From Gammaproteobacteria bacterium (GTDB taxonomy: Bacteria; Pseudomonadota; Gammaproteobacteria; SZUA-229): 64,000 bases of DNA. Numbering within the stretch: the stretch's first letter is position 1; every line of letters starts with the position of its first letter. A program made the translations under genes and the position numbers. Below the pieces are notes generated by a model that was not told the DNA's origin, made no database searches, and saw nothing but the letters and a program-made list of their open reading frames with translations. The DNA is taken from assembly GCA_029882215.1 (NCBI GenBank), contig JAOULC010000001.1:1-64000 (forward strand). Direction: 5' to 3'. Shown here in pieces: positions 41,540-48,701 of this stretch.

Positions 41540-42085
41540 TCAAACATTAATACCATGTTCGAGATTATATCTGTCTATACTGGTAACGATTTCTTCTTTT
41601 GCTTCTTCAGCACCATGCCAGCCTTCCACTTTTACCCACTTACCCGGCTCAAGTGCCTTATATTGCTCAAAGAAATGAGAAATTTGCGCCAATAATTCCT
41701 TTGGTAAATCTTCCGGGCCATGTACATGACTGTAAAGTGTTGTTAGCTTATCGACCGGAACCGCAAGAATTTTAGAGTCTTCACCCGCCTCATCAGTCAT
41801 TTTCAGTACCGCCACTGGGCGACAGGCAATGACTGAACCACTGATAACCGGTACAGGTGTGATAACCAGCACATCTGCCGGATCGCCATCATCAGACAAG
41901 GTGTGCGGAACAAAACCATAGTTACAAGGATAAAACATGGCTGTACCCATAAAACGGTCAACAATCAGCGCACGAAACTCTTTATCTACTTCATATTTAA
42001 CTGGAGCACCATGAGCTGGAATCTCGATGGCAACATTTATTACTTCTGGTACGTTTTCACCCAGCGGAATATGTTCTAAATTCAT
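41540..42085 (-). CDS. ppa: Inorganic pyrophosphatase
   Basis: 181 residues. Family I soluble enzyme that hydrolyses pyrophosphate. The active-site segment [12 protein letters not shown] (metal-binding aspartates), the [11 protein letters not shown] strand and [11 protein letters not shown] are seen. It is divergent from the adenylate-kinase-like fusion gene and 63 bp upstream of mrdA. Confidence 0.97.
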
Positions 42086-42282
42086 TCATTTAACCTTTGT
42101 TATATGTAAATTAAGTTAAATTATACCTGCTATCACTATTTAGCTGTATCTAAAGCATAAAATATTTTAGAAAAACCTTCTTTTTAGCTTAAATAAGCCT
42201 CAATAACGCTCGACATTAGCAAGGCTTTGATTAAAATTCAGACATATAAAAATAAAACAACACTCAATGGGGATATAAGGTC

Positions 42283-43689
42283 ATGAGGATCGTACTACTA
42301 GGAGCACCCGGCTCAGGCAAAGCGACACAAGCTACCAAACTGTCTGAACATTTTAAGATACCTCAGATATCTACCCGAAACTTACTTAATATCGCTGTAA
42401 AAGCGCAAACACCATTAGGCAGACAAGCTAAAGCCACAATGGATGCAGGCCAACAGGTGCCGAATGAAATTATATTTGGCATGATCCGGGAAAGACTCAG
42501 CCGCCCCGATGCAATAAACGGTTTTATTATCTATGGCTTTCCACGCAGCCTGGAACAGGCCGACCTGCTGGATAAGTTACTGAACGAAATCAATCAGCCG
42601 ATTGAACATGTCGCATTGATTCAGGTTGAGTTTGACGACCTGATGGAAAGACTCAGCGGCCGCATGAACTGTGACTCCTGTGGATATGTATTTAATATCT
42701 ATACCAAACCACCAGTACTCGAAGACCAGTGTGACAATTGCGGCTCGGAACTGCATCACCGCAGTGAAGACAATGAAGAAACAATCGCAAGCAGGCTGAG
42801 AATTTTTGAAGCGCAAACCATGCCTTTAATTAGTTACTATAAAGATCAGGGCAAGTTGAAAGTTATTGAAGGTCATGCACAAATAAACATTATTTTCAAA
42901 CATCTACTTGCGGCGCTCAAAGATGTTCGTACAATATACGGTTCAACTAAATCAAGTACACTATCAGGTGGGGAAAAAATCATGAACGACGACAAAACAA
43001 ACGACAATAACAACTTATCAAAAGTTGGCGAGAGTTCCCCACAAACACCCGACAGCAAACCTGCACCGGTCGTTAGCACGCCCTCATCTAATGTACAGAC
43101 ACCGGTAACAACCACAACTATTACGCCATCACCTGCTAATATCTCTGCACCTGCGGCTAGCAAGCCTGCAGAAGTTTCTCCAGCAGCCCCGGCCAAAACA
43201 ATCAATGTCGCGACAAAACCTGTGGCAGTTACTGCCGCTCCAGCCGTAGCAAAGCAGCCTGCTCTTGCTAAAGCATCAACACCAAAAGTTGAAAAACCTG
43301 AAGCGGCAAAGCCGGCTGTTAGCAATACCCAGCCAAAGACTACCAAGCCAAAAGCAAAGGCCGCTGAAGCCAAAACTGTCAAGCCAAAAACAGCCAAGCC
43401 GAAGACAAGTAAGAAGACCCCTGCTAAACCGGCTACTGCAAAGACCAGCACTAAAAAAGTTGCCGCTAAAAAGCCTGTCGCTAAGAAAAAAGCACCTGCT
43501 CCAGCTAAGACTGTGCAGGAACAAATTAAAGAAGCCCGTGAAATACTGAAAAACACAAATACTGAATTAAAGCGCGTCAGTAGCAATGTCGACAAACTGT
43601 CAAAGCTTCATGCTGAAGGTCACAAAGCATTACAACAGTTTATGGCCAAATGGGAAAAAGATGCTCTAAAGAAACTTCCAAAGGCATAA
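42283..43689 (+). CDS. Adenylate-kinase-like protein fused to a Lys/Ala/Pro-rich tail
   Basis: 468 residues. Residues 1-220 align with adenylate kinase: P-loop GAPGSGKA (7-14), FPRS with Arg88, zinc LID cysteines 130/133/150/153, Arg160 and Arg171. Four core positions differ from the E. coli enzyme: GKG becomes GKA (14), Gly32 Arg, Asp33 Asn, and the AMP-phosphate Arg36 is Asn. From about 234 on, an extended tail rich in Ala, Pro, Lys and Thr (histone H1/AlgP-like, many KPK and AAK units) follows, ending in a short helical segment. An in-frame ATG (42982) with AGGTGGGG in front could start the tail separately. Whether it is active as a nucleotide kinase is open. Confidence 0.7.
   Translation: MRIVLLGAPGSGKATQATKLSEHFKIPQISTRNLLNIAVKAQTPLGRQAKATMDAGQQVPNEIIFGMIRERLSRPDAINGFIIYGFPRSLEQADLLDKLLNEINQPIEHVALIQVEFDDLMERLSGRMNCDSCGYVFNIYTKPPVLEDQCDNCGSELHHRSEDNEETIASRLRIFEAQTMPLISYYKDQGKLKVIEGHAQINIIFKHLLAALKDVRTIYGSTKSSTLSGGEKIMNDDKTNDNNNLSKVGESSPQTPDSKPAPVVSTPSSNVQTPVTTTTITPSPANISAPAASKPAEVSPAAPAKTINVATKPVAVTAAPAVAKQPALAKASTPKVEKPEAAKPAVSNTQPKTTKPKAKAAEAKTVKPKTAKPKTSKKTPAKPATAKTSTKKVAAKKPVAKKKAPAPAKTVQEQIKEAREILKNTNTELKRVSSNVDKLSKLHAEGHKALQQFMAKWEKDALKKLPKA
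42982..43689 (+). CDS. Possible separate AlgP-like tail protein from an internal start
   Basis: The Met at 42982 (MNDDKTND...) is in frame with the adenylate-kinase-like gene and stands 9 bases behind AGGTGGGG, a very strong ribosome binding sequence for an internal position. It would give a 235-residue basic, Ala/Pro/Lys-rich protein like AlgP, which binds DNA in Pseudomonas. It may have been an independent gene that became fused when a stop was lost. Expression is not shown. Confidence 0.4.
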   Translation: MNDDKTNDNNNLSKVGESSPQTPDSKPAPVVSTPSSNVQTPVTTTTITPSPANISAPAASKPAEVSPAAPAKTINVATKPVAVTAAPAVAKQPALAKASTPKVEKPEAAKPAVSNTQPKTTKPKAKAAEAKTVKPKTAKPKTSKKTPAKPATAKTSTKKVAAKKPVAKKKAPAPAKTVQEQIKEAREILKNTNTELKRVSSNVDKLSKLHAEGHKALQQFMAKWEKDALKKLPKA

Positions 43690-45589: not shown

Positions 45590-46291
45590 ATGCAAAAGTC
45601 ACGTAGTTTCACCAAGCACACTATTAAAACTAACAAGCCTGCGGCCTCACCCAATAGATCTGTCCCACCCTCTTTCAATGGCTACGGGATAAACACCGAA
45701 CAGTTCAATGCACTATTATCCGGTAACCAGCTCCACTGCCATGAAACATCATTTGATAAAGCGGTACGCAAACAACAGCAGCTTTTCACGATATACAATA
45801 CCCTTGAACGCCAGCATACACTCATTTATAAAATTGATGAGATACTCAACAACAGGCACGGCGTACTCTGGCTGGACTCTCAAATTAAAGAGTTTAAACT
45901 GCTTTGCCCGTCAGACATTCTGATGAATATATCAACACCTTTAATTTCACCGCTCAGAGGTATCGAACACAGTGAAATCATTCATCTGAACTTTTGTAGC
46001 CTGATTAATGATATTTTTTACACTCCTTTAAACGCGCTTATTAAAATCAGACTGGCAGATTTAAGCGAGCATGAGCGCAAGGAGTGGTATGAGTGGTGCT
46101 TAAAAATTGATTCTCAACTCATTATGTTTAAAGCTCAAATCAAATCAGCCCAGACATTTTTTAGTGCTAAATCATTTGACAAAATATGTCGTTTAGCCAA
46201 AGATAATGACCACCAGCAGCAACTTGGGAACATGCGTTATCTATTCCAACAAAAAGCCCGGTCAGTCGATAATGTTGAATACGATGAATAG
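45590..46291 (+). CDS. Uncharacterised protein, tandem paralogue 1
   Basis: 233 residues, family not recognised. A basic, polar N terminus (about 1-60), then a helical region. It shares with the next gene a common ground plan: GV.WL followed by ..F....P..IL, a gap, N...TPL..L, then EW..WC..I.S, and AQ.FFS...F. No signal peptide or membrane segment. It may be cotranscribed with the second copy 60 bp on. The region further down carries PilZ and HD-GYP pieces, but a link is inference. Confidence 0.6.
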   Translation: MQKSRSFTKHTIKTNKPAASPNRSVPPSFNGYGINTEQFNALLSGNQLHCHETSFDKAVRKQQQLFTIYNTLERQHTLIYKIDEILNNRHGVLWLDSQIKEFKLLCPSDILMNISTPLISPLRGIEHSEIIHLNFCSLINDIFYTPLNALIKIRLADLSEHERKEWYEWCLKIDSQLIMFKAQIKSAQTFFSAKSFDKICRLAKDNDHQQQLGNMRYLFQQKARSVDNVEYDE

Positions 46292-46351
46292 TCGATTTTT
46301 TGTTCTGGACAAATTTTCAGTCGATATTCGACACAAAACGACAAGCATGTA

Positions 46352-47113
46352 TTGATGAAAGGCAACGTTTTTAATCCACTTAAAACACCCAGACATCAAT
46401 CACAGGATCACTGCCCCCCAAAGAAACACTCTCATACGCACACCGAAATATCACTGGAAACACTGGAAATATTGTTAACAAGCCTTCCTGATGATGAAGC
46501 ACCCCTGACAGACAGCACTCAACTCAGTAGCTCTGCAAAAGAGTCACAGCGCAAATATATTGAGCATGTGATTGAACATAAACAACATTATTTAAAACGA
46601 CTACAGCATCTGCTTAAACGCAAAAGAGGCGTTGAATGGCTGTATCGTAACCTGTCTTACTTTCAGACTCAGTTTCCCTGGGAGCTCATCTCATTACTAG
46701 AAAATATGGCACATCAGAGTGCATCTGAAGTTTCATACATAACACCTTTAGCAACCTCTGAGCATCAACCCCCTCCTCTTTCAGTTAATAATTACTCTCA
46801 GGTTATCATCGGTGAACTTGAAGGATTACGAGTCTTGACCACAAATATCCGCCGGCTTATCTTCAACAACTTAGAAACGCCTCTGCAACAGCTGACTGCC
46901 GAACTGATTAATCACTGTACTGCCGAAGAACTAAGTCACTGGAGCAACTGGTGCGAGGATATCGAATCCCATATCCGGGAAATTGAAGAACTAGTGCAAG
47001 ACGGGCAAAAATTTTTCTCCATCCGTAATTTTCGGTTAATGGAGCAGCTTCCCATCAGCAAAAGAAGTGCCAGTACACTAAAGGCCATTATCGATAAGGC
47101 TAGCACTAGCTAA
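46352..47113 (+). CDS. Uncharacterised protein, tandem paralogue 2
   Basis: 253 residues. Divergent duplicate of the 45590 protein (RGVEWL, LETPLQQL, HWSNWCEDIESHI and GQKFFSIRNF match GVLWLD, FYTPLNAL, EWYEWCLKIDSQL and AQTFFSAKSF). The N terminus is polar with a His-rich KKHSHTHTE stretch, and the helical part is rich in Lys/Arg and Leu. Function unknown. Stop at 47113, then 157 bp without a gene. Confidence 0.6.
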   Translation: MMKGNVFNPLKTPRHQSQDHCPPKKHSHTHTEISLETLEILLTSLPDDEAPLTDSTQLSSSAKESQRKYIEHVIEHKQHYLKRLQHLLKRKRGVEWLYRNLSYFQTQFPWELISLLENMAHQSASEVSYITPLATSEHQPPPLSVNNYSQVIIGELEGLRVLTTNIRRLIFNNLETPLQQLTAELINHCTAEELSHWSNWCEDIESHIREIEELVQDGQKFFSIRNFRLMEQLPISKRSASTLKAIIDKASTS

Positions 47114-47270: not shown

Positions 47271-48147
47271 ATGGCGACTTCTCAGATTATATTAAAACAA
47301 ATCCCGATTTCGCAGCTTAAAACAGGTGTGTACTTACACGATCTCAACCTGAAACTTTCCCTGTTACCGGCGATAAAGTCTCGGGCAAAAATTCCCACCC
47401 ATTTCACCAATAATATTCTGCAAAATATTATCAACACCGGCATTCAAACCGTAGCGATTGATACTGTTAAGGGACGAGATGTCGATGAAGCGTATTTAGT
47501 TTCAACAAAACACAAAATAGTCATCAGACACAGTCCAAAAAAATCCCTGACTTTAGCAGCCACTTTACCTGAAATCGAAGCCAGTTCGCTCAAAGAGGAG
47601 TTAAAGACAGCGAAATCGCTAAGGCATCGCAGCATACAAACCATTAACAACGTTTTTATTGATGCAAACAAAAGCTTTAAAATAAATACTGATGAAATAA
47701 AAACGACCGTTGAATAACTAACCGGCTCGGTTATCAGAAACCAAAAGGCCCTATTGGCTCTAAGCCAAACACGCCAAAAAAATACTATATGTATGATCAC
47801 ACAATTAATACCTGTGTACTGGCCATTGTATTCTCAAAATGGAAAAAGCTGGATTATGAGACCACAATAAACCTTGGTACAGCTGCGTTATTACACGATA
47901 TCGGTGAAGCAAAACTGGATACCAAAATCATCGGCATGAATCCGGAGCAAGATAACCACGTATTCAAACAGCCACCAAGCATGTCGGTTTTTCAGTACAG
48001 CTACTTTCAACAACGCCCGACAAAAACACTTTATTCAGCCAGTCGACCTTGATCTGTCTGTATCAAAGGAGCTTACCCAGACAATCAGAATAGAAGGCTA
48101 CATCAGCCCTGAGTATCAGAGCATCAACCTTTCCGGTTTTATATAAG
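47271..48147 (+). pseudogene. Broken HD-GYP cyclic-di-GMP phosphodiesterase gene
   Basis: The first 148 codons encode a DUF3391-type N-terminal domain (ILKQIPISQLKTGVYLHDL). An in-frame TAA at 47717 follows, and the same frame continues (VIRNQKALLALSQTRQKN). A run of seven A's near 47778 then shifts to the frame YYMYDHTINTCVLA...LLHDIGE; six A's would restore it. After LDTKII the sequence loses the GYP half, and a C-terminal piece in another frame (DLDLSVSKELTQTIR...SGFI) ends at 48147. At least three lesions, so no enzyme is expected. Confidence 0.8.
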
Positions 48148-48331
48148 TCAGCTATCTTACTGCTATTAAAAGTATCATCAGTGGCTCTTAATCTATGATT
48201 TACCTCATAAAAGTACTAATTTAAAGTAATAAGTCCTTATATTTACTAGTAAATTTATAATTATAAGCTAGAATGTTATTCACATTATCAGCATATAAAC
48301 ACCGCACTCAGGGAGACAAGTTAACTCTATT

Positions 48332-48637
48332 ATGCCAATACCAACAGGACGTAATCTAAGGCGCTTTGAACGATTTACTGTCTCAATGACAGTAGAGCTC
48401 ATATACCCTGATGAAACCACGCATCAATGCACTACCAGAAACATTAGTGATGGCGGCGTATTTGTACTATTACCGAATACCACGTTCCCCCCACTGGGTG
48501 AAATGGTACATATAAAAAAAATATCTGATCAGGAAACAACAATAGAACTACCGCACGATACAGCGGTGGTTGTCCATAAAGACGACAATGGCATTGGGCT
48601 GGCCTTTGTTGATTTAGATCTGGGCAGCTTTGAGTAA
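48332..48637 (+). CDS. PilZ-domain protein
   Basis: 101 residues, single PilZ domain. Cyclic-di-GMP contacts are present: RR at 10-11 with Arg14 (LRRFERF) and N-I-S-D-G-G at 37-42. It would bind cyclic-di-GMP and pass the signal to an unseen partner. It lies between the broken HD-GYP gene and the DUF1631 gene, 64 bp before the latter. Confidence 0.85.
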   Translation: MPIPTGRNLRRFERFTVSMTVELIYPDETTHQCTTRNISDGGVFVLLPNTTFPPLGEMVHIKKISDQETTIELPHDTAVVVHKDDNGIGLAFVDLDLGSFE

Positions 48638-48701
48638 AACCCAGCTTTAATTAAAATTAAGAACTATTTTGTAAAAATCAAAGGGATTACATTTATACAC
48701 G

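Follow-up and report, generated by a model that had tools for sequence, protein, structure and literature searches.

The adenylate kinase gene (adk) at positions 42283-43689 on the forward strand of the window, the whole 64,000-nucleotide stretch of DNA analysed here, carries a C-terminal lysine-rich extension. On sequence comparison, this kinase-tail fusion is ordinary for its gammaproteobacterial family, and the altered active site of the kinase half belongs to a single species. Among the new points, the most useful is a conserved internal start within the genus. We favour, with confidence slightly above even, the reading that the gene has two products, a kinase-tail protein and a free tail, and that the kinase half is turning into a pseudoenzyme in this species. 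Few enzymes have been studied as intensively as adenylate kinase, yet the lysine-rich tail of many gammaproteobacterial members seems to be undescribed; no paper on it was found in a literature search of incomplete coverage.

The tailed kinase and its relatives

The gene is a single uninterrupted frame of 468 amino acids. Residues 1-216 (42283-42930, forward strand) form the adenylate kinase half, which contains eight altered residues and matches the ADK lid and PF00406 (6e-45; 153.5 bits, cut-off 26.8). The protein also passes the thresholds of TIGR01351 (209.3 bits, cut-off 168) and NF001380 (252.9 bits, cut-off 251). The AlphaFold2 model gives a confident kinase fold through residue 219 (pLDDT about 95), followed by a stretch of low pLDDT, mostly 40-52, from about residue 220 to 405. 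This stretch is rich in Lys, Ala, Pro and Thr and is presumably disordered. A confident helix (residues 411-464; 43513-43674, forward strand; pLDDT about 90) then closes the protein, and its C-terminus is homologous to that of orthologues in other genera of the family.

The divergent neighbour on the reverse strand (41540-42085) is ppa, encoding inorganic pyrophosphatase (PF00719, 1.3e-56), and it marks the ancestral adk locus. Divergent pairing of ppa and adk is also present at Ectothiorhodospira and Halothiobacillus loci, where the adk orthologues are tailless. Since tailless orthologues share this pairing, the window gene is the ancestral ppa-linked adk rather than an aberrant additional copy. 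Three ADK genes are present in the host genome (3.43 Mb, 98% complete), so that the window gene is not the only adk of the organism; the other two (C23 and C3) have intact GKGT, STGD(M/I)LR and DGFPRT motifs, and a normal adk thus exists elsewhere in the genome. Downstream in the window, two neighbouring genes of 233 and 253 amino acids (45590-47113) have no Pfam match and are conserved beside adk within the genus. At 47271-48700, a DUF3391 protein precedes an HD-like fragment (47789-48052) in which frame 1 is interrupted by many stops; the region resembles a broken DUF3391/HD-domain gene.

Each of the 27 other family orthologues read has an in-frame basic tail. Beyond the family, the tail occurs in the same frame in Natronospirales, Chromatiales, Steroidobacter gossypii, Nevskiaceae and others, and the computed pI of the tail lies between 10.2 and 12.0 in all tailed relatives. 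Recognisable homologues of the C-terminal helix are present in other genera of the family (G009, for example, at E=1.5e-6). The phylogeny that the original prediction had proposed for the kinase half was built from 84 kinases; every family member on it carries the tail, and the tail label requires 6 changes, compared to 26.7 with shuffled labels. In the clade of the window gene, the nearest named contigs belong to the MAGs Thiotrichaceae bacterium NORP24 and Gammaproteobacteria bacterium LH_M37. Read from these alignments and the tree, the kinase-tail fusion was already present in the ancestor of the whole family. Lysine-rich adenylate kinase tails recur in Steroidobacter, Nevskiaceae, Natronospirales and Chromatiales, and the tree implies several gains or losses (L034-L113).

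The tailed form is the sole adenylate kinase detected in G008, a 95% complete genome of the same family, and in G050 and G057, which belong to other families; in all three its motifs are normal. The tail is therefore compatible with normal function. Because tailed relatives retain normal motifs, the altered site is also no property of the fusion protein as such.

The altered kinase half in this species

The P-loop of the window kinase reads GAPGSGKAT (G14A) and the AMP-site segment reads STRNLLN (G32R, D33N, R36N), as originally predicted. Four further residues are also altered, namely L58Q, D84Y, D162E (D158 in E. coli) and G199A. The prediction that the LID cysteines and the catalytic arginines stay was likewise borne out by the window sequence, which keeps C130, C133, C150 and C153 as well as the P-loop lysine K13 and the arginines that bind phosphate, R88, R123, R127, R160 and R171. 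Positions 32, 33, 36 and 84, which are R, N, N and Y in the window protein, hold the usual G, D, R and D in nearly all relatives. Seven of the substitutions (G14A, G32R, R36N, L58Q, D84Y, D162E and G199A) fall at columns that are invariant in 27 relatives, and D33N is an eighth change outside this set. Most of the other sequences among the 28 of the family have no substitution at such otherwise invariant columns. Each altered codon lies one to three bases away from the codon of the relatives (for example GGC to GCG, GGC to CGA, GAT to AAC, CGA to AAT), which makes scattered sequencing errors unlikely.

Branch counts were made on the four genomes of the genus, with G001 and G003 as outgroups to the window genome and its sister G002. 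Over kinase codons 1-199, the window branch carries 20 amino-acid changes and the G002 branch 5 (binomial p=0.004), and synonymous changes number 16 on each; these are codon counts and not dN/dS values, as synonymous sites are probably near saturation for most genome pairs. In neighbouring genes the amino-acid changes on the window and G002 branches are about even (rodA 10/12, mrdA 26/21, ppa 6/7), as they are in the C-terminus (5/6) and the whole tail (26/20) of the same gene. The excess in the kinase half has p=0.016 when compared with the neighbouring genes and a suggestive p=0.07 when compared with the gene's own tail. Substrate-site residues, taken from a hand-made list, hold 8 of the 20 window changes (p=0.016).

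R36, D84 and the P-loop have known roles in adenylate kinase. In view of these roles, the kinase half in this species probably no longer phosphorylates AMP in the normal way. The kinase frame is intact and free of stops, so this half may still function, with altered specificity or in binding.

The internal start and the constrained block

A Shine-Dalgarno sequence (AGGTGGGG) and an in-frame ATG (42982-42984, M234) lie at 42966-42984 on the forward strand, within the linker. Both the 235-residue Lys/Ala/Pro tail and the ribosome binding sequence and ATG of its own had been predicted and are present; in addition, the signal is conserved in the genus and the DNA around it is under constraint. The Shine-Dalgarno energy at this ATG is -7.3 kcal/mol, compared to -5.5 at the annotated start, and the signal is stronger than at any other in-frame Met codon in the gene. 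Across the four genus genomes the internal energies are -7.3, -7.4, -7.3 and -7.3 kcal/mol, and those of the main starts range from -5.5 to -7.5. Since roughly 12% of background ATGs have a signal of -7 or stronger, the strength of the internal signal proves little alone, and its conservation is the main support. The signal and the in-frame ATG are retained in all four genomes, in a linker that otherwise changes fast. In G002 the residues encoded at the Shine-Dalgarno differ (GEK to GRN), and the signal is not weakened. On this comparison of four genus genomes, the internal start may be used as a second translation start. Its putative separate product (42982-43689, forward strand) would be a basic tail of 235 amino acids with a net charge of +28, made up of the low-pLDDT Lys/Ala/Pro linker and the terminal helix.

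The start lies at the end of a block of synonymous constraint that covers codons 191-235 (42853-42987, forward strand) and includes an AACATCT/AGATGTT inverted repeat and a TACAAT motif (42930-42935). Among the four genus genomes, synonymous identity is 19/26 in this block, compared to 26/120 in the kinase codons before it (p=1e-6), and a permutation scan for such constraint gave p=1e-4. Five other genera compared have no such effect at this block. Along a run of some 60 codons, G001 and G003 are near-identical (58/60 codons the same, compared to 49% overall). This patch (L006/L007, adkT codons 201-263, window about 42883-43070) could reflect constraint or local gene conversion; with either genome dropped, the block constraint still has p values of 2e-5 to 4e-5. 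In the ppa-adk intergenic region (42129-42220), which is possibly regulatory, G001 and G003 agree at up to 96% in 60-base windows and G002 is strongly different.

Several other sources of the block were considered and rejected. A mobile or repeated element is not indicated, as the junction has no further good copy in any of the four genus genomes. An antisense open reading frame (42873-43595) is broken in G002 and G003. The fold of the block as RNA is not unusual and has no Rfam match there, and a promoter scan found no sigma-70 match.

Proposed explanation, rivals and known systems

The two-product reading would run as follows. A ppa-linked adenylate kinase was inherited vertically within this gammaproteobacterial family, together with an old C-terminal extension that comprises a disordered Lys/Ala/Pro linker and ends in a long helix. 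A second start in the linker would then let one gene of the genus supply, besides the kinase-tail protein, a free basic tail some 235 residues long. In the species of the window, residues of the AMP site and the magnesium site have been lost from the kinase half, normal AMP phosphorylation is probably gone, and the two other Adk genes would take over the housekeeping role. By analogy with AlgP, whose KPAA tail binds DNA (PMC9239181) and is the one tail of this kind from which such binding is known here, the tail probably binds nucleic acid, most likely in a non-specific manner, and the terminal helix may be an assembly or docking element. Such a tail, kept on the ancestral copy, given its own start in one genus and outliving the active site of the kinase in one species, would show that it has an independent function, and the relatives would offer a natural series from normal kinase through dual start to damaged kinase. 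The bolder form of this idea, that an enzyme gene is turning histone-like, with the start in the genus freeing the tail and one species keeping a pseudoenzyme head, is put forward tentatively, as something we think rather less than probable.

Relaxed decay could instead account for the kinase half, which would drift as a redundant copy; the linker block would then be a regulatory DNA element, such as an internal promoter or a site for protein binding, or be constrained in another way, and the ATG would remain untranslated. We regard this as unlikely, though a serious contender. The genome does contain two other Adk genes, and the constrained block begins upstream of the Shine-Dalgarno, at about codon 191, and holds the inverted repeat and the -10-like TACAAT. 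The negative sigma-70 scan and the ordinary RNA fold argue against this account, however, and so does the retention of both signal strength and ATG in 4/4 genomes amid a fast-changing linker. Quite improbable in our judgement is a neofunctionalised kinase, in which the altered NMP site would take a different substrate or serve solely to sense ATP. The intact frame, the retained lysine and arginines and the enrichment of changes at substrate-site residues are consistent with it, but general catalytic features (D84 and the P-loop G14) have been lost besides the AMP-specific ones, and the altered residues are found in one species only.

The remaining two accounts concern the tail. A tether to polyphosphate granules, by which an AlgP-like tail carries adenylate kinase to polyP, takes its appeal from the association of AlgP with such granules (PMC9239181). 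It is very improbable here: neither PPK1 nor PPK2 was found in the host genome, and of 13 family genomes searched only G006, G007 and G009 yielded PPK1, in a family where the tail is general. The lack of a detectable PPK1 or PPK2 in the genome and the rarity of PPK1 among the family genomes searched make nucleic acid a likelier partner than polyP. The stop-codon loss suggested by the original prediction, or a sequencing error behind the fusion, is excluded by the relatives. The junction does resemble an intergenic region with its own Shine-Dalgarno and ATG, yet the same frame runs into the tail in every family orthologue read and in other families, where separate adjacent genes had been envisaged, and the C-terminal module is homologous across genera.

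Compared to the zinc-LID bacterial adenylate kinases (TIGR01351, NF001380; PDB 5g3y and 1zin), the window protein has the same fold, P-loop lysine, LID cysteines and phosphate-binding arginines, and differs by G14A, G32R, D33N, R36N, D84Y and D162E as well as by a basic tail of about 250 residues. The adenylate kinase NF010381 (PRK13808) likewise bears a C-terminal extension rich in Lys and Ala. The window protein scores 155.9 bits with this model, under the cut-off of 426, a threshold passed by three genomes that all belong to one genus of a different class in the phylum. This group lies far from the window gene on the tree and has a shorter tail, which was probably gained independently.

AlgP of Pseudomonas aeruginosa, a histone H1-like protein with KPAA repeats (PMC9239181), combines a disordered, Lys/Ala/Pro-rich and strongly basic region with a helical part, as does the window tail; this likeness is one of composition only and weak evidence of kinship. 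The helical part is C-terminal in the window protein and N-terminal in AlgP, and the window tail is attached to an enzyme, unlike AlgP. Kinship of the tail with the phasin group of AlgP and PhaF was rejected: the helical phasin-family domain PF05597 is absent from the Pfam matches of the window protein, and no protein of the genome exceeds its cut-off. Where polyP kinases are lacking, AlgP seems to be found with the nucleoid (PMC9239181). In-frame internal starts whose products have separate functions are an accepted class, with infB, cheA and ccmM as examples (PMC11005335). The window gene shares with these a conserved Shine-Dalgarno and ATG that would be expected to yield an N-terminally shortened product; it differs in that its putative short form, known here from sequence, would be the non-enzymatic tail alone.
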